Below are positions 37,084-63,681 of a DNA stretch of 64,000 nt, piece after piece. The notes below the pieces were generated by a model that was not told the origin of the DNA, did no database searches, and saw only the letters and a program-made list of their open reading frames with translations. Source of the DNA: a bacterium (lineage in GTDB: Bacteria; Desulfobacterota; Desulfocorpusculales; Desulfocorpusculum); contig JBBFLE010000001.1 of assembly GCA_037481695.1 (NCBI GenBank), positions 316,989-380,988 of the forward strand. Reading direction: 5' to 3'. The translations under genes were made by a program, and so were the position numbers. Numbering within the stretch: the first letter of the stretch is position 1; each line of letters opens with the position of its first letter.

Positions 37084-37707
37084 CTAACCCTTTCTGAGAG
37101 CCCTTATTCTCTTGATGAGCCCTCCTGCCTGGGCCTTGACCAGGTAGTCTATTACCTGTTTGCGGGTGTAGCGCGGCCGTAGAATCCAGCGCCTTATTAC
37201 CCCAAAGACTCCACTGTAAACAAGGAAATTGGCCTCCATGAAGGGATCCATGCCCCAGGCCCCATCCAGGGCTTCTTCGATGATCCTTTGGAAAAACTCC
37301 ACGATCTCCGATTCCCTTTGGAGGATGATCTTTAGGTAGTCGGCCCTCACGTACTTGGCCTGGGTGTAGGCCAACATAACCTGGTCTTCCAACTCCATGG
37401 CGCTTTCCACAAATGCCCTGAAGGTGGACTCCAGTCTCGAGAGGGGATCCTGGCAGGGAGGCCCCTGCGCCTTGAGCTTTCCATAAAAGGAGTTGCAGTA
37501 GTTCTCGAAGAAGAGATAGAGAATATCGTCTTTGCTCTTCACATAGTCATAGATGCTTCCAAGCCCTATGCCGGCCTCTTCGGCTATTTCCCTAACCGTG
37601 GCTTTGTGGTAGCCCTTCTCCTTGAAGACCCTAATGGCCCCCTCTATGATTTGCCTTCGCTTCTCGTCTATGAGCTGACGGTCCTTAACCTTGGATTCCA
37701 CCTGCAC
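37084..37707 (-). CDS. TetR-family regulator heading the methylmalonyl-CoA operon
   Basis: About 207 aa. The N-terminal helix-turn-helix runs RRQIIEGAIRVFKEKGYHKA and VREIAEEAGIGLGSIYDYVKSKDDILYLFF; the C-terminal ligand domain (YRF-type FRAFVESAMELED, EIVEFFQRII) resembles regulators of acyl-CoA genes. The frame opens at ATG 37764, but the predicted promoter puts RNA start near 37760, so I prefer GTG 37707 with GGGAG nine bases upstream. As the first gene of the operon it probably represses itself and the pathway, released by an acyl-CoA; ligand is unknown. Confidence 0.9.
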   Translation of the reverse strand: MQVESKVKDRQLIDEKRRQIIEGAIRVFKEKGYHKATVREIAEEAGIGLGSIYDYVKSKDDILYLFFENYCNSFYGKLKAQGPPCQDPLSRLESTFRAFVESAMELEDQVMLAYTQAKYVRADYLKIILQRESEIVEFFQRIIEEALDGAWGMDPFMEANFLVYSGVFGVIRRWILRPRYTRKQVIDYLVKAQAGGLIKRIRALRKG

Positions 37708-37750
37708 GGGTGATTTCTCCCAAGTGGCATATGTTTTTGGGGCAGGTCCC

Positions 37751-37762
37751 GAACAAACGTTC
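37751..37762. promoter_or_regulatory. candidate operator in the tetR leader
   Basis: GAAC, four bases, GTTC: an imperfect 12-base inverted repeat right at the predicted transcription start of the tetR-fum-sdh-suc operon. Short, so it may be chance; position fits autorepression. Confidence 0.3.
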
Positions 37763-37766
37763 ATTC

Positions 37767-37794
37767 ATCATATTCAGAGATCGGTTATTGTCAA
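37767..37794 (-). promoter_or_regulatory. sigma-70-type promoter of the methylmalonyl-CoA operon
   Basis: On the minus strand TTGACA (37794-37789, six of six) and TATGAT (37772-37767, five of six) are separated by 16 bases. RNA would begin near 37760 and cover tetR and the downstream genes. Nothing else in the adjoining intergenic stretch comes close to consensus. Confidence 0.7.
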
Positions 37795-38097
37795 GTGGAA
37801 ATTAGCCAGGCCTGAACCGGGGAAGACCACTTTGGGGGAATAAGGCTTCTTTGAGCATAAAGGAGTTCATCCAGAAGATCGTGGAGCTAGCCCCCCAATT
37901 CAGTGGTTGTAAATAGTTTGGAATATGTGCACAAGCAGTAGGCTTGGAGGCTCGGCTGTACCGATCCTTGGAGTTCCTGGCTCTTTGTCAGGTGAGTCTT
38001 TCTAGGGAGGGCAACCTGGCAGCATCTTGCCTTACAAGCTGGTCATAGTTGGCACCCTATGCCCTAGCAGCAGTTTCAGTTGCTCATTTGTAGCCTA
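37795..38097. other. intergenic region upstream of the operon promoter
   Basis: About 300 bases between the promoter and the radC stop. No plausible ORF, no strong hairpin with T-tract, no tRNA-like fold seen. The radC transcript reads toward the promoter here. Confidence 0.5.
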
Positions 38098-51008: not shown

Positions 51009-52973
51009 TCATTTTTGGAGCTCAGGAAGGATGCTCTCGAAGTAATCCAGCACCTCGGGGTTGGCCAGGGCATCCCTGTTGGTCACCGGTCTTCCATGGA
51101 TGATGTTGGTGACCGCGCTTTCCACCTTCTTCATGTTGAGTGTGTAAGGAGCCCCGGGCATCTCCATTATGATGGCAGGCACATGCCTGGGAGAGGCCTT
51201 TTCCCTCAAAGTCCTCTTTATCTTGTCTTTCAGCTCCTGGGTGAGGCTGTAGCCTTCGTTTAGTTTCACGAAGAGTATGATTCTTTGATCACCCTGCCAA
51301 TTCTGCCCTATGGCCAGGCTGTCTGCTATTTCGGGAAGCTTCTCCACCTGGTTGTAGATCTCGGCGGTCCCTATGCGAACCCCCGAGGGTTTCAAAACAG
51401 CGTCTGAGCGGCCGTAGAAGGTGATGCCCCTGGTGTCGCTATGCATCACAATGTAATCTCCGTGACGCCACACTCCTGGGTAAACCTCGAAGTAGGCTGC
51501 CCTGTACTTGGAGCCATCAGGATCATTCCAGAAATGGATAGGCATGGAGGGGGCTGGGGCCTCGCACACCAGCTCAGCCTGCTGATCCCAGACGTGGTTT
51601 CCCTTCTCGTCGTAAGCCTTCACCTTCATGCCCAGGGCAGGGCTTTGGAGTTCCCCTGCGTAAACGGGCAGAATGGGGCTTCCTATGGCAAAGCAGCCGT
51701 TTATGTCCGTTCCTCCTGATATGGAATTGAAGTGCAGGTCCTTCTTTATCTCCCTGTAAACGTACTCAAACCCCTCGGCAGAAAGGGGAGATCCTGTTTG
51801 GGATATCTGCTGGAGAGCGCAAAGGTCATACTGCTTGCCGGGACTGACTCCTTGAGCCCTCAACGCATTGACATAGCTTGCACTTAGCCCGAACACCGTT
51901 ATATTGAGATCCTGGGCCAGTTTCCACATGGCCCCTGCATCTGGATGCATGGGATTGCCATCGTAGAGCACCACCGTGGCCCCGGCTCCCAGGGAGCTCA
52001 GAAGCCAGTTCCACATCATCCAGCTGCATGTGGTGATGTAGAAGATGGTGTCCTGCCTCTTGAGATCCGTGTGGATGATTAGTTCCTTGAGATGATTGAT
52101 GAGAATGCCTCCGGCTGATTGCACCATGCACTTGGGCTTTCCAGTGGTGCCAGAGGAAAACATTATGTAAACAGGATGCTCAAAAGGAAGCTGCTCGAAG
52201 GGGATCTCCAGGCCTTTGGTCTCAGAGAGAAACTCCTCATAAGCCACGGCATTGGGCAGGGCCTTGAGATCAGCCTTGCCACCCGCATAATTCACCACAA
52301 TTACCTTCTGGAGGGAGGGGATGTTTCTGGCCACCTCAACGGCATTCCCAAAGGAGTCAAAGACCTTTCCCTTGTAAAAGTAACCATCCACCGTAAACAT
52401 GACCCTGGGTTCCACCTGACCCAAACGGTCCAAGGCGGCCTGGGCACCTATGTCTGTGGCGCAGGAAGACCAGACCGCCCCTATGCTTGTGGCAGCCAAC
52501 ATGGCAATGGCAGTCTCCATGAGATTGGGCATGTAACCAACCACCCTGTCCCCCGGCTTGATCCCAAGCTTTTTTAGGGAGTTAGCCAAACGGGCCACCG
52601 TGTCGTAAAGCTCTGCGTAAGTCATCTGAGCCCTCTTTTGGGTCTCCCCAACAAACTTGAAGGCCACCTGATCGTCCCTGTAGCGCAGCAGGTTCTGGGC
52701 GAAATTCAATCTGGCCCCAGGAAACCACTTGGTTCCAGGAAACCTCTTTAGATCCTCCACAACTCTCTCGTAGGGTGCCGAGGATTGAATCTGCACAAAT
52801 TCCCACACAGCAGCCCAAAAATCCGGTATCTCCGCAACCGACCAGTCGTAGAGTTCCCAGTAATCCTTGAAGGACTTTCCGTACTTTCGATTCACCTGAT
52901 CTATGAAGCGGGTGATATTGGCCTTGGCCTTTCGTTGCTCTGAAGGCTCCCAAAGAGGGGTTTTCTTGGTCAT
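51009..52973 (-). CDS. aacS: acetoacetyl-CoA synthetase
   Basis: 654 aa adenylate-forming ligase that activates acetoacetate with ATP and CoA. ATG 52973 has GGAGG ten or so bases upstream. The N-terminal LWEPSEQRKAKANITRFIDQ and WELYDWSVAEIPDFWAAVWEF are those of AacS; the ATP loop is IMFSSGTTGKPKCMVQSAGG, then SGGTDINGCF and the A8-region GRSDAVLKPSGVRIGTAEIY. The C-terminal Lys lies in YTLNMKKVESAV. In the operon it should capture acetoacetate released by the BKACE enzyme. It is the last gene before the terminator; its start overlaps the SDR coding end region. Confidence 0.93.
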   Translation of the reverse strand: MTKKTPLWEPSEQRKAKANITRFIDQVNRKYGKSFKDYWELYDWSVAEIPDFWAAVWEFVQIQSSAPYERVVEDLKRFPGTKWFPGARLNFAQNLLRYRDDQVAFKFVGETQKRAQMTYAELYDTVARLANSLKKLGIKPGDRVVGYMPNLMETAIAMLAATSIGAVWSSCATDIGAQAALDRLGQVEPRVMFTVDGYFYKGKVFDSFGNAVEVARNIPSLQKVIVVNYAGGKADLKALPNAVAYEEFLSETKGLEIPFEQLPFEHPVYIMFSSGTTGKPKCMVQSAGGILINHLKELIIHTDLKRQDTIFYITTCSWMMWNWLLSSLGAGATVVLYDGNPMHPDAGAMWKLAQDLNITVFGLSASYVNALRAQGVSPGKQYDLCALQQISQTGSPLSAEGFEYVYREIKKDLHFNSISGGTDINGCFAIGSPILPVYAGELQSPALGMKVKAYDEKGNHVWDQQAELVCEAPAPSMPIHFWNDPDGSKYRAAYFEVYPGVWRHGDYIVMHSDTRGITFYGRSDAVLKPSGVRIGTAEIYNQVEKLPEIADSLAIGQNWQGDQRIILFVKLNEGYSLTQELKDKIKRTLREKASPRHVPAIIMEMPGAPYTLNMKKVESAVTNIIHGRPVTNRDALANPEVLDYFESILPELQK

Positions 52974-53011
52974 GGTCCTTGCCTCCAAAGAATGGAAATC
53001 TCGAGCTTTTT

Positions 53012-53971
53012 TCACTCGTAGCGTTCTGGGTGCAAACGCAGTTCCTTCAGGAAATCCTCCACTATACTTTCCTGATCATACTGAGGCTGCCAGCCCCATT
53101 CCTTTCGCGCCAGGCTGTCATCCAAAGGTAGAACGAGCCTGTCTATTATCTTCTGTTTTTCCTCGTCCACCTGGAATTGAATCCTGGCATCTGGAAGCTT
53201 CGCCTTTACCATTTCCACCAGCTCCTGCGCGCTGGCCGCCGGGCTAGGACCTGCCACCACGTAGTTCACCATCTGAATGTTCTCCCTGGGCGCATCCCCC
53301 AGCATCACAATGGCTCTGGCAGCGTCTTTGAAATACATCACCGGACAGCGCGTATCTGGCCTCACGTACATCACGTAGGGCCTGCCTTTGGCGCACTCCT
53401 CTATGACCCATGCATTGTATTGCACGATACCAGGTGTCTTGACCCCTGGCCCTACTATGGAAGGATAACGTACTCCCCTGAAATCAAGACCGTACTTGCG
53501 TCTGTAAAAAAGCCCCATTAGCTCGGAAAAGACCTTGGTACAGCCATAGAAGAGCTGGGGCCTCTGTAAGGTGTAATCGTCTATCTTTGCCTCCCGGATG
53601 TCCAGCCCATAGGTGGCTATGGTGCTTGAAAACAGGACCTTCTCCACATCGAAGAGCCTGGCCGCCTCCAATACATGGAATGTGCCCATGGCATTGGCGC
53701 GGAATGAGGCCTGCGGATCTGCGTCAGATGGTACCGACAACATGCCCCCCAGGTGATATATGGCCGTGGGATTGCATTGCTTGACCACGCTTAGGACATG
53801 GCTGAAATTCCCAAGGTCCCCCTTGACCACCCGCACCTTTTCCACAACGTCCTGGAGCAGTTTCGTCGAGGGATTGATGTCAAAGGCTGTGACTTGCTCC
53901 CCTCTGGCCAAAAGTAGACGAACCACTTCGGCTCCTATGAATCCGGTCCCACCAGTTACCAAGACTGCCAT
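53012..53971 (-). CDS. extended SDR: NAD-dependent epimerase/dehydratase, L-threonine-3-dehydrogenase-like
   Basis: 319 aa. VLVTGGTGFIGAEVVRLLL binds NAD; the catalytic YGCTK motif (Tyr and Lys) and upstream SSTIATYG are present; MLSVPSDADPQASFRANAMGTFHVLEAA and SIVGPGVKTPGIVQY resemble the UDP-galactose-epimerase-like threonine dehydrogenases. GGGAGGCGGG precedes the ATG. In this operon it would oxidise or reduce an alcohol/ketone carbon of the imported substrate; exact reaction unknown. It lies between hydroxyacyl dehydrogenase and aacS. Confidence 0.85.
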   Translation of the reverse strand: MAVLVTGGTGFIGAEVVRLLLARGEQVTAFDINPSTKLLQDVVEKVRVVKGDLGNFSHVLSVVKQCNPTAIYHLGGMLSVPSDADPQASFRANAMGTFHVLEAARLFDVEKVLFSSTIATYGLDIREAKIDDYTLQRPQLFYGCTKVFSELMGLFYRRKYGLDFRGVRYPSIVGPGVKTPGIVQYNAWVIEECAKGRPYVMYVRPDTRCPVMYFKDAARAIVMLGDAPRENIQMVNYVVAGPSPAASAQELVEMVKAKLPDARIQFQVDEEKQKIIDRLVLPLDDSLARKEWGWQPQYDQESIVEDFLKELRLHPERYE

Positions 53972-53985
53972 GTCCCGCCTCCCTC

Positions 53986-54948
53986 TCAGTCCTTCCAGTA
54001 GAGTTCCTTGAGTCTCCTCAAAAACTCCTTGTCCCTCCTTCGGATGGCCTCATCCAGCTCTGCCTTGGAAAAATCCACAGCATAGTCATAGAAACCTTTG
54101 CCTGACTTGATGCCCAAATGCCCTTGGGAGATGAGTTCCCGCACCACATTGGGAACCTCTGTGGAACTGCAGATCTCTGGTACAAGGTTATCGTAGACCC
54201 TCACCCAGAGATCCAGGCCCCCCAGGTCTGCCGTGAGAAGAGGACCTATGCTGGCCAGCCTGAACCCAATACTGCCTTTGACAGCCTTGTCTATGTCTTC
54301 TGCACTGGCAATACCCCTGGCGTAGAGATCCCACACTTCCCTGATAAGGGCGGTTTGAATTCTGTTGACTATGAAGCCGGGAAGCTCCTTTTGGATCCTC
54401 ACAGGCATCTTACGGATCCTCTGTAAGAGTCCCACTGCCACCTCCATGGTTTCATCAGTGGTCTTGGGCCCTCGCACCACCTCCACAGTAGGCACTATGT
54501 GAGGAGGATTGAACCAGTGAGTCACAACCAGCCTTTCTTTGTCTTTGACCTTTTGGCCTATGGCCGAGAGGGTAAGAGAAGAAGTGTTAGTGGCTATTAT
54601 GGCCTGGGAAGGGCAAAGACTCTCCACCTGGGCGAAGAGCTCCTGCTTCAGGCTCAGATCCTCTGGAGCCGCCTCCACGATGAAGTCTGCCCCCTCAACT
54701 GCCCGAGCCAGTTGTGTGGTGGTAAGAAGTCTCTCCATGGCCGGCTCCACGGCCCCTGACTCAAGAAGTCCCTCCTGGGCGAACATCTGCATGTTCTCTT
54801 TGATGTGAGAACGAGCCGTCTTCAACACGGCCTCACTTATGTCATAAAGGCCAACGGGATATCCTCCCATCAGGAAGGCCTGGGCAATGCCATGGCCCAT
54901 GATCCCGGCACCCAGCACAGATACCCTCTTCACATCTTCCAGCTTCAT
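53986..54948 (-). CDS. 3-hydroxyacyl-CoA dehydrogenase-family protein (possible hydroxy-acid or carnitine dehydrogenase)
   Basis: 320 aa, NAD domain VSVLGAGIMGHGIAQAF and catalytic His/Asn region TNTSSLTLSAIG, THWFNPPHIVPTVEVV, then the C-terminal domain PGFIVNRIQTALIREVWDLY and HLGIKSGKGFYDY. It lacks the long hydratase fusion of FadB. Stand-alone members of this size include 3-hydroxybutyryl-CoA dehydrogenase, L-carnitine dehydrogenase and L-gulonate 3-dehydrogenase. Adjacency to BKACE and AacS favours oxidation of a free beta-hydroxy acid such as carnitine. Which, cannot be shown. Confidence 0.85.
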   Translation of the reverse strand: MKLEDVKRVSVLGAGIMGHGIAQAFLMGGYPVGLYDISEAVLKTARSHIKENMQMFAQEGLLESGAVEPAMERLLTTTQLARAVEGADFIVEAAPEDLSLKQELFAQVESLCPSQAIIATNTSSLTLSAIGQKVKDKERLVVTHWFNPPHIVPTVEVVRGPKTTDETMEVAVGLLQRIRKMPVRIQKELPGFIVNRIQTALIREVWDLYARGIASAEDIDKAVKGSIGFRLASIGPLLTADLGGLDLWVRVYDNLVPEICSSTEVPNVVRELISQGHLGIKSGKGFYDYAVDFSKAELDEAIRRRDKEFLRRLKELYWKD

Positions 54949-55009
54949 AGCGCGCCCCCTCCTGGTCCCACCCTTGGGGATTAAGAAAGCTCAACCTCAG
55001 CCAGCAATC

Positions 55010-55930
55010 CTAATAGCTCACCTTGTCCAACCCCTTGAGTCCCAGGATCTGTCTGGCTTCATCAGGTGTGGCGGGCTCAATGCCCAGCTCACGGGCGATT
55101 CTGACGATCTTTTCCACCTGCTCGGCATTGCTCTTGGCCATGCGGCCCTTTTCCACGTAGAGGCTGTCTTCGAGCCCCACTCTGGCATTTCCGCCCATTA
55201 CCAAGGCAGCAGTACACATGGGCATCTGATTACGGCCCGCCGCACAAACCGACCATTGAAAATCCCCTATGAGGTTCTTGGCCGTCTGATAAAGGAACAC
55301 CAGGTTCTCCACTGTGGCTGGAATCCCGCCCAAGATCCCCATGACAAATTGCAGGTAAACGGGCTTTTGAATATGGCCAGCCTGGATCATGAAGGCCAGG
55401 TTGTTTATCATTCCCACGTCGTAGATCTCTATTTCAGGCTTGGTCTGAGATTCCTTGAAAAACCCGCAGAACTCCCTCATGGTCTTGAAGGTGTTGGGAA
55501 AGATCAGATCCTCGGTCATTGCCAGATACTGGGGCTCCCAGGGGTGCTTCCACTCTTTGATCTTCTGAAGTATTGGGAAAAGGGCGAAGTTAAGAGATCC
55601 GAAATTGAAAGACGCAAGCTCTGGCCTGAATCTCCTTACCACCCCAACCCTCTGCTCGGCGGTCATGCCGAGGCCCCCACCAGTGGTGGTGCAAAGGATA
55701 ATGTTGCAGCGGGATTTCACCTCGGTCAGCACCTCACCAAAAAGCTCCAGAGAGGGTGAGGGAGCCCCGGTTTCAGGATCCCTGACATGGATGTGAGCCA
55801 CCGCTGCCCCAGCCTCCCATGCCCTTACCGCCTCATCGGCTATCTGCTTGGGGGTTATGGGCAGATAAGGGGTCATGCTGGGGGTGTGGATGCTACCTGT
55901 GATGGCTGCTGTTATGATTGCCTTGGACAT
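55010..55930 (-). CDS. beta-keto acid cleavage enzyme (BKACE, DUF849)
   Basis: 306 aa TIM-barrel zinc enzyme of the Kce/BKACE family. AIITAAITGSIHTPSMTPYLP, GAAVAHIHVRDPETGAPS (the HIH zinc motif with catalytic Arg/Asp nearby), LCTTTGGG, PELASFNFGSLNF, and GGNARVGLEDSLYV are signature segments. Known members take a beta-keto acid and acetyl-CoA and yield a CoA ester plus acetoacetate. The acetoacetate is then the natural substrate of the aacS product in the same operon. AAGGAGG ribosome site. Substrate specificity is open; the dehydrocarnitine group is one candidate. Confidence 0.9.
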   Translation of the reverse strand: MSKAIITAAITGSIHTPSMTPYLPITPKQIADEAVRAWEAGAAVAHIHVRDPETGAPSPSLELFGEVLTEVKSRCNIILCTTTGGGLGMTAEQRVGVVRRFRPELASFNFGSLNFALFPILQKIKEWKHPWEPQYLAMTEDLIFPNTFKTMREFCGFFKESQTKPEIEIYDVGMINNLAFMIQAGHIQKPVYLQFVMGILGGIPATVENLVFLYQTAKNLIGDFQWSVCAAGRNQMPMCTAALVMGGNARVGLEDSLYVEKGRMAKSNAEQVEKIVRIARELGIEPATPDEARQILGLKGLDKVSY

Positions 55931-55964
55931 GGAAACACCTCCTTTTGCCTGAACTCCAGGCTGC

Positions 55965-57290
55965 CTACTTGGCCCCTTCCAAAGCCTTGGGGAGCCAGAT
56001 ACAAAGCTCAGGAAACGCTATGCAAAGCGCGGTCACTATTGCCTGTATGCATACAAAGGGCACTATACCTCTGTATATGGCTGGAAGGGGGATCTCTGGG
56101 GCTATGCCTTTGAGATAGAAGATGGAGTAAGCGAAAGGAGGCGTTAGGAAAGATATCTGGAGGCTCACACACACCACCAGCCCCACCCACAAAGGATCAA
56201 AACCCAGCTTCATGAGGATGGGGGAAAAAATGGGCACTGTGATGAGCAGAATCCCGATCCAGTCTATGAAACAGCCTAGAATAAAGATGATCACCAGGAT
56301 GGTGATGAATACCCCCCAAGAGCCGAATCCCAGGGAAAGCAGAAAATCCGTTATTACCTGACCGCAGCCTGCGCTCAAGAAAGCCCCAGTGTAAAGATTG
56401 GAGGCTATGGCAATGAAGATTATCATGGAGGTTATTCTCAAGGTGAGGTAGCAGTTCTCCCTAAATGCCTTCCATGTCAAGCTCCTGTTTATCATGGCCA
56501 GGCCCACTGCCCCCACAGATCCTACGGCTCCAGCCTCTGTGGGGGAAGCCACCCCGAAAAATATGGAGCCCAGCACCAAAAAAACCAAAAACACAGGTGG
56601 TATCAAATACTTGAAGCCCGTCACAAGGGATTCCCTGGAGAAAAAGGGAATCCTTTCCTCTGGGGCCAAAGGAGGGCCCATTTGGGGGTTCAAGGCCGTA
56701 CGGATCAGGACATAGAGCATGTAACCCACACCCAGAAGCATTCCCGGAATCAGAGCTCCTGCATACATCTGAGTCACAGAAACCCCGGCCATGGGCGCAT
56801 ACAAGATCAACATGACGCTTGGGGGAATAAGGATTCCCAGTGTGCCTCCAGCGCACACCACTCCACTTGCCAATCCCTTGTCGTACTTGGCCTTGAGCAT
56901 GGAGGGCACTGCCAAGAGCCCTATGGCAGTCTCGGAAGCCCCCACGACCCCAGTACAGGCTGCAAAGATTATGGCCAGGGCCACGGTGGCCACGGCCAAT
57001 CCACCCCTCAGACCTGCCATCCACCTCCTGAGGATGGTGAAAGCCTTCTCGGCCACCCCAGAGGTTTGCATCATGGCCCCCATGAAGATAAAAAGAGGCA
57101 CCGCTGCCAGAATATACTCCGAGAGGGTCCCGTTTATTATTCTTTGGGGCATCATGTACAGGTAGGCCTTTCCCGTGGTCAGGTACCCGAACAGAAGCCC
57201 CATGGTGCCTATCCCGAAGGCCAGGGGAAATCCTGCCAAGAGCACAAAGAGGCTAAGAAGCATGAGGATGGTCACAAGCTCGGGGCTCAC
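55965..57290 (-). CDS. dctM: TRAP transporter large permease (DctM)
   Basis: 441 aa with about twelve helices. LLSLFVLLAGFPLAFGIGTMG and the PLFIFMGAMMQTSGVAE, AACTGVVGASETAIGLLAVPSM, LGILIPPSVMLILYAPMAGVS, FLGCFIDW-type ILGCFIDWIGILLITVPIF segments are typical of DctM. GTG start overlaps the dctQ stop (GTGA). It carries solute coupled to sodium or proton with DctP delivering the ligand. Confidence 0.95.
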   Translation of the reverse strand: MSPELVTILMLLSLFVLLAGFPLAFGIGTMGLLFGYLTTGKAYLYMMPQRIINGTLSEYILAAVPLFIFMGAMMQTSGVAEKAFTILRRWMAGLRGGLAVATVALAIIFAACTGVVGASETAIGLLAVPSMLKAKYDKGLASGVVCAGGTLGILIPPSVMLILYAPMAGVSVTQMYAGALIPGMLLGVGYMLYVLIRTALNPQMGPPLAPEERIPFFSRESLVTGFKYLIPPVFLVFLVLGSIFFGVASPTEAGAVGSVGAVGLAMINRSLTWKAFRENCYLTLRITSMIIFIAIASNLYTGAFLSAGCGQVITDFLLSLGFGSWGVFITILVIIFILGCFIDWIGILLITVPIFSPILMKLGFDPLWVGLVVCVSLQISFLTPPFAYSIFYLKGIAPEIPLPAIYRGIVPFVCIQAIVTALCIAFPELCIWLPKALEGAK

Positions 57291-57793
57291 CTGGCACCTC
57301 CCTTAATCACCTTCTCTAAGGTTCTCAAGAAGTCCACTAGGCCCTGGAAGAGAAAAAGAAGGAACCCAAAGGTGATGGCCAGTTTGAAGGGCCAAAGGTG
57401 GGGCCGCCATACGCTCACCGAAGAGCGCTCCCCTGAGCTCAAGGTCCAAAGCCCATGTTCCCCGCATTTGTAGGTCAATACCAGCAGGAGGGGGAAAAAA
57501 AGCAACAAATAACAAATTGCCTCAACCACAGCCTGCGTCCTGGGAGACAGCCTTGCATAGAGCAGATCCATCCTGACATGAGTCTTGAGGGCCTGACAGT
57601 ATGCCACACCCAACACCGAGTAAGCCCCGTAGGTCATGTAAGTGACCTCGAAGGCCCAGTGGGTAGGCTTGTTGAATACGTATCTCATCACTATGTCGTA
57701 GCATATGGCCATGACCAGTGCAGGCATAAGATAACTTGAGAACTTTCCCGTCCACTCGCTGGCCCTATCCACTGCCCGAAAAACCTTCTCCAA
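57287..57793 (-). CDS. dctQ: TRAP transporter small permease (DctQ)
   Basis: 168 aa, four helices: LMPALVMAICYDIVMRYVF, HWAFEVTYMTYGAYSVLGVAY, AVVEAICYLLLFFPLLLVL and LAITFGFLLFLFQGLVDFL. Residues RYVFNKPTHWAFE follow the DctQ pattern. A TTG start at 57793 with GGGAGG upstream is used. There is a 137-base gap after dctP, in which small hairpins may set the higher expression of the binding protein. Confidence 0.9.
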   Translation of the reverse strand: MEKVFRAVDRASEWTGKFSSYLMPALVMAICYDIVMRYVFNKPTHWAFEVTYMTYGAYSVLGVAYCQALKTHVRMDLLYARLSPRTQAVVEAICYLLLFFPLLLVLTYKCGEHGLWTLSSGERSSVSVWRPHLWPFKLAITFGFLLFLFQGLVDFLRTLEKVIKGGAR

Positions 57794-57930
57794 CGATCAC
57801 CTCCCTAAACTTCAAGGGAGGGGCCCCCTGTTCGGGGAAGCCCACTCCCGGAAGTATTCTCAGACCTCTGCTGCCTTATAGCCTCTCAAGGCCCCTTTTT
57901 TGGCAAAGAGGGCACATTGCCTCAGAGGCT

Positions 57931-58980
57931 TCAATGGGGCAGGGAAAACATCTTGGAATACGGATACCACTTCTTGCCAAAGGCCTTCTGGGACTCCCAC
58001 ACCTTCTTGAAGAACTCGTCCTTGGCCGACATCTCGTCCAGATAGTCTTCAGCCCACTTGATGAAGGTCTTGACGGTCTCAGGATCCACTTCCACTATCT
58101 CTATGCCCTTCTCCTTGAAGAAGTCCATGGCCTTGATGTTTTCAGACTCCATCCATAGCCAGTTCAAAAGCCTCATCTTGCCTATGGCGGCCTCCACCTG
58201 CACCTTGAGATCCGCAGGCAACGCCTCCCAGGCTTTCTTGTTGACCACTATCTCCAGCTGGGAGGCGGGCTGGTGGACACCGGGCAGGTGCAGGTACTTG
58301 CACACCTCCCAAATGCCCAGGGTCTTGTCAAAGGCTGGAATGCTGTACTCCGCCGCATCTATCACACCTCTTTGAAGGTTGGGCATGATCTCCCCTGCTG
58401 GCATGAATACCACAGAAAGGCCGTGCTTGGTCAGCACATCTCCCATTACCGGCATCATCCTGAACTTGATACCCTTCCAGTCCTCCAGCTTCTTCAAAGG
58501 CTTCTTGGCCCACATGAAGATCTCCATTGCTATGGGGGCATCATGGAAGACCTTCACCTTGTAGCCGTACTTGTCATACATCTCCTGATGAAGCTCCTTG
58601 CCTCCTCCATGCTCCAGCCACATCTGCATGTCCAGGGCATTGAGACCTCCAGGGGCTGCCGTAAAAAGCGGTGAGACGGGAATCTTTCCAACCCACTGCC
58701 CGGTGTACCCGAAGTTTGCTTCATAGACCCCATCGCTTACGGCCTTGAGCCCCTCGAAGGGAGGCACCAGAGCCCCGGCAGGGAAACATTCCCAAACAAG
58801 GCGGCCATTGGTTACCTTCTTTACCTCTTCCGCGGTCCTAAGCATGGCCTCGTGATACAGCATGCCTGCTGGCACAAAACCCTGGACCTTCCACTTGATG
58901 ACCTTTTCCTGAGCCATTGCTGGCATGACCAAACAAACGGCCAAGGCCACCGTCGCCAAAACCAATCCCATCTTCCTCAT
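57931..58980 (-). CDS. dctP: TRAP transporter solute-binding protein (DctP)
   Basis: 349 aa periplasmic receptor. ATG 58980 has GGAGG eight bases upstream; a Sec signal GLVLATVALAVCLVMPAMAQ ends at the AQ-E cleavage site. KWKVQGFVPAGMLYHEAMLRTAEEVKKVTNGRLVWECFPAGALVPPFEGLKAV (in part) and the FRMMPVMGDVLTKHGLSVVFMPAGEIM segment with its Arg-containing carboxylate-binding region are those of DctP7-type receptors. The ligand should be a carboxylic acid; its identity is unknown. It heads the catabolic operon. Confidence 0.93.
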   Translation of the reverse strand: MRKMGLVLATVALAVCLVMPAMAQEKVIKWKVQGFVPAGMLYHEAMLRTAEEVKKVTNGRLVWECFPAGALVPPFEGLKAVSDGVYEANFGYTGQWVGKIPVSPLFTAAPGGLNALDMQMWLEHGGGKELHQEMYDKYGYKVKVFHDAPIAMEIFMWAKKPLKKLEDWKGIKFRMMPVMGDVLTKHGLSVVFMPAGEIMPNLQRGVIDAAEYSIPAFDKTLGIWEVCKYLHLPGVHQPASQLEIVVNKKAWEALPADLKVQVEAAIGKMRLLNWLWMESENIKAMDFFKEKGIEIVEVDPETVKTFIKWAEDYLDEMSAKDEFFKKVWESQKAFGKKWYPYSKMFSLPH

Positions 58981-59077
58981 GGCCCACACCTCCCCGAAAA
59001 TGATTCCCCCTCTCTGGGGCATTGTACCCTCCAAGCATTCCAAGTGTTTTATTTTTCTAGCCGGTCTCCTATGGTGA

Positions 59078-59101
59078 CTTTGGCCTAGTATGAGGCCAAA
59101 G
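59078..59101. promoter_or_regulatory. operator-like perfect inverted repeat upstream of dctP
   Basis: CTTTGGCCT, AGTATG, AGGCCAAAG: two 9-base arms in perfect symmetry, starting right after the predicted transcription start (about 59103) of the dctP-aacS operon. Position and symmetry match a repressor site. The repressor is not encoded in this part of the window. Confidence 0.65.
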
Positions 59102-59109
59102 CGCTCCCT

Positions 59110-59138
59110 TTCATATCGCGAGTGGGCCTCTGTGTCAA
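59110..59138 (-). promoter_or_regulatory. sigma-70-type promoter of the TRAP/BKACE operon
   Basis: Minus strand: TTGACA (59138-59133, perfect) and TATGAA (59115-59110, four of six) with a 17-base spacer. RNA would start near 59103 and pass through the inverted repeat toward dctP. Confidence 0.65.
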
Positions 59139-59437: not shown

Positions 59438-60244
59438 ATGAACTGGATCCATCGAATAAATCAGCTTCCATCTCAGGAAAAAGAGGGACTCTACAGGATT
59501 TTGATTCCCCCTTCCCTCTATAAGAGGTTCCAGATTCATCCCCTTAGGCTCACCTCCCCAACGGGTCATAGGGCTGTACGCATCTGGGGGCCCCCTGGTG
59601 ACAGGACAGCCCTGGTGGAGATCAAGCTTGAGCAAATGGAAGAGCCTCTTTATTCCATTCAAGTATCAGACACACAGGATTTCACACAACTGGACTGGGA
59701 CTTCTTGATTGTGAACGATCCTCAAGGTCCCAGGTTCTTGACCCAGGTGGACTCCCATGGGAGGGACACCCTCTTTGGTTGGGCTTTCAGAAATCTAGAG
59801 GAAGAAACAAGGGCCATGGAGGCAGGGCTCTGTCCAGGCCAAAGCAGGAAAGGTCTTAGGCTAACCGGGGAAGCCATTGAGTGCTTGGAGTTCTTCTGCC
59901 GCATCCTGGATATCCGCATCATACGTCTGGAAGCCCTCTTTTATCATAATGCCATCACCTACGAGCGACACGGCTTCTCCTATTTCAGCGGGTATCCCCT
60001 GATGAAGAGCATCCACCAGGAGTTTCAGCCTGGTGGAAAACTTTATGCGCTTATGGACGGAAGCACCCCTTTTAGACGCCCCGAGATGGCCCAGACGGTT
60101 CGAGGCAGAAGCTGGGCCATTCACGACGGGATCCTCCTGGAAGTTGAGGACGATCTGCTCAGCCAGGGCTGGATCTCCCCGGTCATGTACCGCATGGTGG
60201 GAAAACCCAGGCCCATGACCACCTTTCCTGACCCCATCTATTGA
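59438..60244 (+). CDS. conserved-looking hypothetical protein
   Basis: 268 aa, soluble, start at ATG 59438 with GGGAGG upstream. The composition and reading frame are protein-like (WDFLIVNDPQGPRFLTQVDS, ALFYHNAITYERHGFSYFSG, MAQTVRGRSWAIHDGILLEV). The YERHGF-with-aromatic segment faintly recalls the end of GNAT folds, but no acetyl-CoA motif is visible. There is no DNA-binding domain, so it is an unlikely regulator for the divergent TRAP operon. I do not recognise the family. Confidence 0.65.
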   Translation: MNWIHRINQLPSQEKEGLYRILIPPSLYKRFQIHPLRLTSPTGHRAVRIWGPPGDRTALVEIKLEQMEEPLYSIQVSDTQDFTQLDWDFLIVNDPQGPRFLTQVDSHGRDTLFGWAFRNLEEETRAMEAGLCPGQSRKGLRLTGEAIECLEFFCRILDIRIIRLEALFYHNAITYERHGFSYFSGYPLMKSIHQEFQPGGKLYALMDGSTPFRRPEMAQTVRGRSWAIHDGILLEVEDDLLSQGWISPVMYRMVGKPRPMTTFPDPIY

Positions 60245-60359: not shown

Positions 60360-63158
60360 ATGTTGAGCATACGAGATCTCAGCATAAGGACCAAGCTTGT
60401 GAGTCTCACTTTGCTGCTGGTCTTGGTCCCACTTTTGGCAGTGTCCTTCCTTTCTCTGAATAGATTTGACAGTGCCCTCAGAAGAGCAGCCGAGCAGGAC
60501 CTGGAGCATCTTGTACAGAATATGTACTCCATGTGCAGCCTCCAGGAGGAGATGGTACAGAGGGAACTGGACAGAAAAATGGCATTGGCTAGGATGCTGC
60601 TTCTGGGAGATGCCCGGCAGGTTCAGGCTGACTCAAGCAGGCCCATTAGGTTTGTCTTGAGAGATCCTGAGGCTCAAGAGCTCATGAGTATCGAGGTCCC
60701 ATCCTGGAAGCTGGACGGGGCATGGGTAAACCTGGATCCGGATTTCATCGACAGGGTGGGAGAGCTCATAGGGGGCATCTGTACCATCTTCCATGTCTCG
60801 GAGACCGGGGAGCTCCTGCGCATTGCAACCAACTTAAAAGACAAACAGGGCAGCCGCGCCATCGGCACCTTTCTGCCCAGGGAAAGCGCCGTTTCCATGA
60901 TGCTGGCGCGGGGACAGCCCTTCAAAGGTAGAAGCCTTGTCTTGGAGGAATGGTACATAACCGTGTACGAACCAGTTCTGGATCAAGACCAAAGGGTCCT
61001 GGGTGCCCTGGGCGTGGGAGTCAGGGAGCCGGCGCTTTCCCTCAAGACCCAGGTCAAGGACATAAGGGTGGGGTACACTGGCTACGCTTACATAATGGAC
61101 AGCCAAGGGGTCCTGAAGGTGCACCCTGTCAAAGAGGGCGAGAACATAATAGATGCTCAGGATTCTGAGGGCTTTCACTACATAAGGGCAATGGTGGAGG
61201 TTGCCACGAAAATGCCCGAGGGGCATGTGGAGACCATCCGCTACCCCTGGATGAACCCTGAGCTGGGGGAGAGAGCCCCCCGGCAAAAGATCACCAAATA
61301 TACTTACTTTCGGCCCTGGGACTGGATAATCGCCGCTGGCACATACGAGGAAGAGATCTACCAGGCCCTTTACGAGACCCAGCGGTTCATAGTGGCAGTG
61401 GTGCTGGTTAGCCTGCCTCTGGTTTTTATTTTCACCGTGGGACTCTCCAAGATCCTTACCCGCAGGATCGGGGAGCTGACCCAGGCCACCGCCCGCATGC
61501 TGGACGGAGATCTTTCCCAGCGAGTGGAGGTGCATGGAAGGGACGAGGTGGGAATTCTGGGACTGTCCTTCAACAGGATGGCAAGTCAGATCCAACAGTA
61601 CACCACCAGTCTCCAGAACATGGTCAATGAAAGAACCAGGGAACTGGCCGCTTCCAGGGAACGGTACAGGGAACTCTCCACTTTTCTCAACAGCATACTG
61701 GAAAGCGCCACCCAGTATGCCATCATGGCCTTGGACTTCAAAGGCCAGATAATGGAATTTAACAAGGGTGCAGAAAGGCTCTTTGGCTGGAGCAAGCAGC
61801 AGGTCGTGGGCAAAGAGAACATAGCAATAACCATCCCGCCAGAGGAAATAGAAAGAGGCATTCAAAAGAAAATAGCGGCCCGAACTCGCACCGAGGGGCT
61901 CTGCGAGATAGAGATGGAAAGAGTCCGAAAGGACGGAAGCAGATTCCCGGCCCACTCGGTGGTGACCGCCATGATGGATCCAGAGGGCAGAATCTCTGGT
62001 TTTGTGGAGATTGTTGGAGACCTTACCCGCAGGAGGCTTTTGGAAAAAGAACTGAGGGAAACCAAAGAGTTCCTGGAAAACGTGATGGCCAGCTCTGTGG
62101 ACGGTATAGTCACCACGGACCTCAAGGGACACATCACCTTCCTAAACCGTGGAATGGAAGAGATGCTGGGCTTTAGTAAGGCGGAGCTTCTTGGAACCCA
62201 TATCTCAAGACTTTATGTCAAGGGTATCCAGGAGGCCAGACAAATAATGGAGATCCTCAGATCCCAACAAAGGGTAGAGAACTACGAGATGCAGATCCTG
62301 CGCAAGGACCAAGAGGTGCTTTCCATCATCAACTCAGCTTCTCTTCTCAGAGATGGCGAGGGCAATGTGATAGGCACGGTGGGGGTTTTCAAGGACTTGA
62401 CCCAGCAGAAGAAATTGGAGGCCAAGCTCAAGGAGACCCAGGCCCATCTGGTGGAGGCTTCCAAATTGAGGGCCTTGGGAGAGCTGGTGGCAGGAGTGGC
62501 CCACGAGCTCAACAATCCTCTGATGGCTTCCCAGACCATTCTCCACGTCATGGAGACGGAACTTCACCAGGATTGCCCCAACAAGAACAGACTGGAGGTC
62601 ATCAGGCGTTGCAATGACAGGATAGCCAGGATAGTGGATCACTTGCGGGAATTCTCAAGGCAGGCCAGACCAGAGCTGAGGCCCACAGACATAAATCTTC
62701 CCATTGAAAACGCCCTACTCATAACAGGCCAGCAGCTCTTGGATCATCAGATTCACCTGGAAAGAAGGCTGGCCCAAGGACTTCCCCCTGTAATGGCTGA
62801 TCCCAATCAGATGGAACAGGTGCTCTTGAACCTGATCTCCAATGCCAGAGATGCACTGGACGAGAAGCAGGATGCCAAAAATCTGTTGATCGAGACAGGC
62901 CTGGAAAAACGTGGCGAAAGCTCCTGGGTGGCGGTGACGGTCAAAGACACAGGGCCAGGGATCCCCCCTGAACTCCTGGAAAAGGTCATGGAGCCCTTCT
63001 TCACAACCAAACCTGTGGGACGGGGCACAGGGCTGGGGCTTTCTCTTTGCTTCAAGATTGTGGAGGATCATGGTGGAATGTTGGAAATCAAAAGCCAGGT
63101 GGGAATGGGTACCGAGGTCAAGGTTCTCCTTCCGGCCCTGGGTGATGATGCTTCTTAG
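60360..63158 (+). CDS. membrane sensor histidine kinase: Cache, HAMP, two PAS, HisKA, HATPase
   Basis: 932 aa. A first membrane helix (TKLVSLTLLLVLVPLLAVSF) precedes a large periplasmic Cache-type sensor (about 35-340, with GYTGYAYIMDSQGVLKVHP and WDWIIAAGTYEEEI), a second helix (FIVAVVLVSLPLVFIFTV), a HAMP segment (RRIGELTQATARMLDGDL), then two PAS domains (about 445-560 and 570-690), the phospho-acceptor box AGVAHELNNPLMASQ, N box NLISNARDALD and G boxes DTGPGI and GTGLGLSL. No receiver domain; a separate receiver gene follows 157 bases later. The ribosome site is weak. Signal unknown. Confidence 0.93.
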   Translation: MLSIRDLSIRTKLVSLTLLLVLVPLLAVSFLSLNRFDSALRRAAEQDLEHLVQNMYSMCSLQEEMVQRELDRKMALARMLLLGDARQVQADSSRPIRFVLRDPEAQELMSIEVPSWKLDGAWVNLDPDFIDRVGELIGGICTIFHVSETGELLRIATNLKDKQGSRAIGTFLPRESAVSMMLARGQPFKGRSLVLEEWYITVYEPVLDQDQRVLGALGVGVREPALSLKTQVKDIRVGYTGYAYIMDSQGVLKVHPVKEGENIIDAQDSEGFHYIRAMVEVATKMPEGHVETIRYPWMNPELGERAPRQKITKYTYFRPWDWIIAAGTYEEEIYQALYETQRFIVAVVLVSLPLVFIFTVGLSKILTRRIGELTQATARMLDGDLSQRVEVHGRDEVGILGLSFNRMASQIQQYTTSLQNMVNERTRELAASRERYRELSTFLNSILESATQYAIMALDFKGQIMEFNKGAERLFGWSKQQVVGKENIAITIPPEEIERGIQKKIAARTRTEGLCEIEMERVRKDGSRFPAHSVVTAMMDPEGRISGFVEIVGDLTRRRLLEKELRETKEFLENVMASSVDGIVTTDLKGHITFLNRGMEEMLGFSKAELLGTHISRLYVKGIQEARQIMEILRSQQRVENYEMQILRKDQEVLSIINSASLLRDGEGNVIGTVGVFKDLTQQKKLEAKLKETQAHLVEASKLRALGELVAGVAHELNNPLMASQTILHVMETELHQDCPNKNRLEVIRRCNDRIARIVDHLREFSRQARPELRPTDINLPIENALLITGQQLLDHQIHLERRLAQGLPPVMADPNQMEQVLLNLISNARDALDEKQDAKNLLIETGLEKRGESSWVAVTVKDTGPGIPPELLEKVMEPFFTTKPVGRGTGLGLSLCFKIVEDHGGMLEIKSQVGMGTEVKVLLPALGDDAS

Positions 63159-63256: not shown

Positions 63257-63315
63257 GGTGTGGGGATGAAAATGGATAATTGTTGAGGAATGATTCAGGC
63301 TTGGGAGGAGCCCTC

Positions 63316-63681
63316 ATGAGCAAGAAAATACTCATTGTGGATGACGACGAGCTGATCTTGATAGCCTTAAGTGAGCTCCTTCGTCCCCAAGGCTATGAGG
63401 TCCATACCATTGGAAAACCCCTGGAGGCCTTGGAAAGGCTTGAGAAGGAAAGTTTCGACCTGTTGTTGCTGGATGTTATCATGCCTGAGATGGATGGGTT
63501 CGAGCTTTGCCGCAGGATAAGGGAAAAAGAGATTCAGAAAGACACACCCATAATTTTCCTGACAGCCAAAAGCAAAGATGAAGACAGGGAAAAGGCTCTG
63601 GAGGTAGGAGCCAATCTTTTCTTGTCCAAGCCCATATCCCCGGACCGGCTTCTGGCCCTCATATCCCAGGCTTTGGGCTGA
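63316..63681 (+). CDS. single-domain response regulator
   Basis: 121 aa receiver (CheY-like). KKILIVDDDELILIALSEL has the acidic pair, LLLLDVIMPEMDGFEL the phospho-acceptor Asp, IIFLTAKSKDED the switch Thr and LFLSKPISPDRLL the conserved Lys-Pro. No output domain. ATG 63316 has GGAGGAG upstream. It most likely takes phosphate from the preceding kinase and passes it to a partner outside the window. The 3' end overlaps the convergent next gene by 23 bases. Confidence 0.93.
   Translation: MSKKILIVDDDELILIALSELLRPQGYEVHTIGKPLEALERLEKESFDLLLLDVIMPEMDGFELCRRIREKEIQKDTPIIFLTAKSKDEDREKALEVGANLFLSKPISPDRLLALISQALG

Follow-up and report, generated by a model that had tools for sequence, protein, structure and literature searches.

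The locus upstream of dctP raises a single question: what is a perfect inverted repeat doing exactly where transcription of a catabolic operon should begin? A preliminary description of the window (here meaning the whole stretch of 64,000 nucleotides) reported a consensus-like promoter, TTGACA-17-TATGAA, with a perfect 9-bp inverted repeat at its transcription start, and read the repeat as the operator of a distant repressor. Both elements are present in the sequence as described, and are laid out as follows.

59133–59138, minus strand: -35 hexamer TTGACA, read from the sequence, with a 17-nt spacer to the -10 hexamer
59110–59115, minus strand: -10 hexamer TATGAA, read from the sequence
59102–59105, minus strand: likely transcription start, 5 to 8 nt past the -10 hexamer, placed by promoter geometry
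59078–59101, minus strand: perfect inverted repeat CTTTGGCCT-N6-AGGCCAAAG, 9-bp arms with 0 mismatches between them
58981–59105, minus strand: putative 5' leader of about 120 nt, with GGGGAGGTG as the ribosome site ahead of the ATG

The two hexamers together carry 10 of the 12 consensus bases, the gap between the -10 hexamer and the repeat is 8 nt, and the repeat lies about 120 nt upstream of dctP. A standard promoter scan called nothing at TTGACA-17-TATGAA because it requires a T at position 6 of the -10 hexamer. Downstream of the promoter lies a series of transport and catabolism genes, and the opposite strand carries three divergent genes.

57931–58980, minus strand: dctP, TRAP solute-binding protein, first gene of the operon (Pfam DctP, 3.4e-39; ATG at 58980)
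57287–57793, minus strand: dctQ (Pfam DctQ)
55965–57290, minus strand: dctM (Pfam DctM; NCBIfam TIGR00786 above cut-off)
55010–55930, minus strand: beta-keto acid cleavage enzyme, BKACE (Pfam BKACE, 8.7e-109)
53986–54948, minus strand: 3-hydroxyacyl-CoA dehydrogenase family protein
53012–53971, minus strand: NAD-dependent epimerase/dehydratase family protein (SDR)
51009–53015, minus strand: acetoacetate--CoA ligase (NCBIfam TIGR01217, 878 bits against a cut-off of 521)
59438–60244, divergent strand: first divergent gene, encoding a 268-aa protein without a Pfam or NCBIfam match
60360–63158, divergent strand: Cache_3-Cache_2/PAS sensor histidine kinase (Pfam)
63280–63681, divergent strand: receiver-only protein (Pfam)

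The genes from dctP through the acetoacetate--CoA ligase (51009–58980) are probably transcribed as a single unit, and two other loci, L035 and L036, share the gene order from dctP as far as the SDR. The best NCBIfam model for the BKACE is the 3,5-dioxohexanoate type, at 421.1 bits just below the cut-off of 430; a passage of PMC10470551 describes an enzyme of this type in phloroglucinol breakdown, yielding acetoacetate and acetoacetyl-CoA. Judged from its gene content, the operon plausibly serves a TRAP-fed hydroxy- or dioxo-acid pathway. Among the matches listed in a literature search on the beta-keto acid cleavage enzyme, TRAP transporters and regulators, no title or opening of an abstract concerned a dctP–BKACE operon.

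The TetR, GntR and LacI classes comprise dimeric repressors with start-point operators. In keeping with such systems, a dimeric repressor encoded elsewhere might bind the 24-bp dyad, centred at about +14, and block promoter escape until the substrate of the operon appears. Perfectly symmetrical 9-bp arms where a near-consensus promoter should start transcription are what such a site should look like, and we regard this explanation as possible, albeit below an even chance. The preliminary description had stated that no regulator gene adjoins the repeat; this holds for DNA-binding regulators, which counts against an operator, but needs qualifying for regulators at large, given the divergent histidine kinase and receiver-only protein 1.3–4.6 kb away. 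Neither of these two proteins has a DNA-binding domain in Pfam (E 1e-5). The best NCBIfam model for the kinase is AtoS, at 319.5 bits far under the cut-off of 646, and the pair adjoins an acetoacetate-handling operon. The only DNA-binding regulator domain found by Pfam among 14 window proteins, the remaining window genes having been judged at most by a glance at their translations, belongs to a TetR-family protein (37084–37707), whose gene lies about 21 kb from the operon. By eye, the region of this gene (37084–37820) shows an upstream TTGACA followed by the dyad-like stretch gaatgaacgtttgttc, which differs from the dctP repeat and may be the operator of the TetR-family gene itself, and which would offer the operator explanation a possible local precedent.

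Regulators of another type occur beside orthologous TRAP/BKACE operons. Genes for HTH_3-cupin proteins adjoin the operon at two remoter loci (L129, 3433–3993; L042, 2201–2758), showing that such operons can have a DNA-binding regulator, and these proteins are candidate pathway regulators in other families. This genome encodes 4 homologues of the L129 protein (E 1e-5), 23–36% identical to it. The best of the 4, at 36%, follows the apparent end of an acyl-CoA dehydrogenase gene, and no repeat of the dctP type was seen in 0.5 kb read there by eye. We rejected an HTH_3-cupin protein as the missing repressor on the identities of the 4 homologues and the inspection of the best one. In the contig of the relative G002 discussed below (L125), translations inspected by eye revealed no obvious regulator within 8 kb upstream.

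A repressor acting from a distance might be expected to have further sites. We searched the genome (4.10 Mb in 52 contigs) with the 24-mer pattern, which matched exactly at one place and at 10 others with 3 mismatches each in the 18 fixed bases; the 22-base core of the element matched 9 others with 2 mismatches each. Together, the ten and the nine constitute 15 distinct looser places, 12 of which fall within mechanically called open reading frames (L002/L084, L004, L083, L085, L086, L088–L091, and L138–L140). The patterns outnumbered their backward controls (11 versus 2 for the 24-mer and 10 versus 1 for the core), which looks like enrichment but, since 12 of the 15 places are in reading frames, is tentatively taken as an effect of base composition. 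The other three places look non-coding (L003 and L137 with 3 mismatches, L087 with 2) and could be counted in favour of an operator, although 3 of 15 is near the non-coding share of about 12% in a 460-kb piece of the genome, and none of the three was seen before a regulator gene. At L087 an ATG with a ribosome site follows the place after 20-odd nt, although a longer frame starting from TTG covers the place. At L137 (1501–1524), CTTTGG-N12-CCAAAG directly precedes an ATG and its ribosome site. The long frame beyond that repeat starts in a different reading frame, which may mean a broken gene or a misplaced start. Allowing the exact arms any spacer of 2–14 nt added one further place, inside a 404-aa reading frame, and a search across relatives was uninformative, with matches within 2 mismatches in at least 99 of 148 genomes, this one included. 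With no second exact copy, no regulator gene bears an identical site; the genome sequence thus lends no support to a distant repressor that has a strict site ahead of its own gene, whereas one that reads its sites loosely is possible. The exact element being single-copy is as expected for a part of one messenger.

Conservation, the other property expected of an operator, was assessed upstream of orthologous dctP genes. A locus search gave 17 loci and whole-genome searches added more; 15 upstream regions, from genes whose DctP is 54–84% identical, were tested (L049, L035–L042, L129–L131, and L054–L056). Homologues at 32–43% (among them L043–L048, L050, L051, and those from L057 onward) did not enter the test, and L053, L100, and L101, which look like records of L038, L040, and L041, were set aside. 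The element was absent before all 15 genes, including that of the same-family relative: the best matches had 6–8 mismatches in 18 bases, against shuffle means of 7.0–7.6 (60 shuffles each), so that none of the 15 did better than shuffled sequence and the conservation anticipated for the repeat did not materialize. Four of these regions, and perhaps more, are weak tests because dctP there follows other operon genes (L038, L042, L131, and L055). Long repeats of different sequence and place precede dctP in L037, L054, and L056, and were reached by 5, 3, and 4 of 100 shuffles, respectively; most of the other orthologues have no long repeat. In L037, a Smithella dctP, two long tandem repeats with 12-pair arms, G-T pairs allowed, lie about 130–40 nt upstream, the first of them having 8 Watson–Crick pairs. 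Hence, of the original proposal, the promoter with its start-point dyad is real and an operator is possible, whereas the distant repressor finds no support in either the copy search or the orthologue comparison.

The repeat might, alternatively, be fortuitous, a functionless chance neighbour of a working sigma-70 promoter. We consider this unlikely, although the sequence of the repeat is not conserved and perfect repeats of such size are not exceptional in intergenic DNA here. A 460-kb stretch, 11% of the genome, contains 21 perfect repeats with arms of at least 9 bp and loops of 3–8 nt, 7 of which fall between mechanically called genes; the 55.7 kb of intergenic DNA in that stretch would be expected to hold about 1.3 by simple 4^-9 arithmetic. 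Outside the window, an intergenic perfect repeat with the same 9-6-9 layout (AAGGTCAAA-N6-TTTGACCTT, G000:C1:307442-307465) sits between convergently facing genes. When the 300 nt immediately upstream of dctP were shuffled 100 times, a 9-bp Watson–Crick repeat arose in 2 of the shuffled sequences. By itself, then, a repeat of this size is uncommon, not rare, and its occurrence by chance at the local level is unlikely. Given the frequency of similar repeats between genes, the notable feature is less the repeat than its position directly past a near-consensus -10 hexamer. This exact placement speaks against coincidence, as do a folding energy reached by no shuffle and an identically placed repeat in a relative (both below). 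Start-point hairpins as a general habit of the genome were rejected: hairpins of at least 6 pairs occur at 2 of 33 promoter-like places (sites in the 460-kb piece that have good hexamers and lie upstream of genes), the dctP promoter included, versus 10 of 152 shifted control positions, which is no enrichment.

A comparison bearing on operator versus RNA hairpin comes from within the class, for which three genomes were compared, this one included. One of the other two, G001, has no close dctP orthologue (best 42%). The other, the same-family relative G002, which appears to be one record with L049, has the first 109 codons of a dctP before its contig ends, 76–79% identical over these 109 residues. 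Its promoter, TTGACA-17-TAGAAA, is followed after 5 nt by CGCTTTC-N11-GAAAGCG, such that the positions of promoter and repeat are kept between the two genomes whereas the letters of the repeat, its loop length, and its span differ. A 7-bp repeat arose at that position in 63 of 5000 shuffles, and 17 of 100 shuffles had one anywhere in the 300 nt. Because an outer CGCTTT and AAAG are common to both stems, few pairs are truly compensatory. The G002 hairpin folded alone has a modest predicted energy of -9.8 kcal/mol, reached by 4.9% of shuffles, and the minimum-energy fold of its whole leader lacks the hairpin (-50.6 versus -45.1 kcal/mol with the hairpin enforced). Coming from one relative, this comparison tilts only mildly toward RNA pairing over a fixed operator.

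In the window, a folding energy of -15.3 kcal/mol is predicted for the 5'-most 32 nt of the putative transcript. None of 2000 shuffles reached this value, and the 9-bp stem can be extended by an outer G-U pair. The hairpin is present in the minimum-energy fold of a 146-nt leader that includes 21 coding nt; in the fold of a slightly shorter leader, ending at 58970, it is lost to pairing with the ribosome site. Rfam returned no family above its gathering score, the only match being RF01108 at 21.2 bits against a gathering score of 38 (E 0.86), and a known structured leader RNA was rejected accordingly.

We tentatively favour a 5'-terminal stem-loop, most likely protecting the 5' end of the messenger from decay, and rank it, though likewise below an even chance, slightly above the private operator, since a repeat lies at the same place in G002 while letters, loop, and span have changed. 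The repeat would be transcribed as the first 25–30 nt of the dctP operon mRNA, the stem-loop would form with few unpaired bases ahead of the stem, and, like the ompA stabiliser, it could then shield the long dctPQM–BKACE messenger from 5'-end-dependent decay. 5'-terminal stem-loops are described as a known mRNA stabiliser in a passage of PMC7509114, citing Emory et al. 1992 and Chen et al. 1991. Both the folding of the hairpin in the cell and its effect on mRNA stability are extrapolated here from predicted structures. Weighing against the stem-loop are the single relative and its hairpin-free best fold, the disruption of the hairpin in the fold ending at 58970, the few truly compensatory pairs, the lack of a promoter-wide habit, the lack of an Rfam match above threshold, and the absence of a long repeat before most remoter orthologues.

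The competing pairing suggests a more elaborate device, in which the left arm would pair with either the right arm or the ribosome-site region and thereby switch translation. The predicted duplex between the 5' 28 nt and the ribosome-site region reaches -21.0 kcal/mol in the window and -24.6 in G002, and the two states of the window leader are close, each appearing in one fold at slightly different leader lengths. In G002, pairing equal to this was found at 13 (28 nt) or 7 (20 nt) of 372 other gene starts, but 2.3%, 8.0%, and 17.7% of three kinds of shuffles equal it as well. For the window, the corresponding figures are 12.8%, 34.1%, and 37.5% of shuffles and 95 (28 nt) or 37 (20 nt) of 372 gene starts, and the energy of the whole leader has a z of only -0.78. 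By these predictions the ribosome-site pairing does not stand out in the window, is weak in G002, and is not convincing. It is very improbable that the leader is bistable, and equally so that it represents a new small translational switch of a TRAP/BKACE catabolic operon, in which the arm and its pairing partner would have changed in concert between two genera. In view of the whole-leader fold of G002, the more complete shuffle results, and the three looser places in non-coding DNA, we weighted both the bistable leader and the stem-loop slightly down.

Whether a hairpin at the tip of an mRNA or a single-copy repressor site, the repeat is an ordinary kind of control element, and either would show how a TRAP/BKACE pathway is controlled in a bacterium from a sparsely sampled class. 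The locus also carries two lessons: a perfect start-point dyad alone does not equal a repressor site, and comparison with as little as one relative can sway the decision whether such a dyad is an operator or an RNA hairpin.

Among known systems, intrinsic terminators share with the dctP element a hairpin with G-C pairs, but the latter has no T run on either side and stands after a promoter and before a gene, and we rejected a terminator on these grounds. The start-point operators of TetR, GntR, and LacI repressors resemble it in the perfect dyad that overlaps a sigma-70 promoter at about +1 to +25, and differ in that here there is no adjacent DNA-binding regulator and no second exact site, and the dyad is not kept in orthologues. 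Compared with the ompA-type stabiliser of Escherichia coli, the 5' end is placed here from the promoter alone and a counterpart exists in one relative at best; the likeness lies in a leader about 120 nt long with a stable predicted hairpin a few nucleotides from its putative 5' end.
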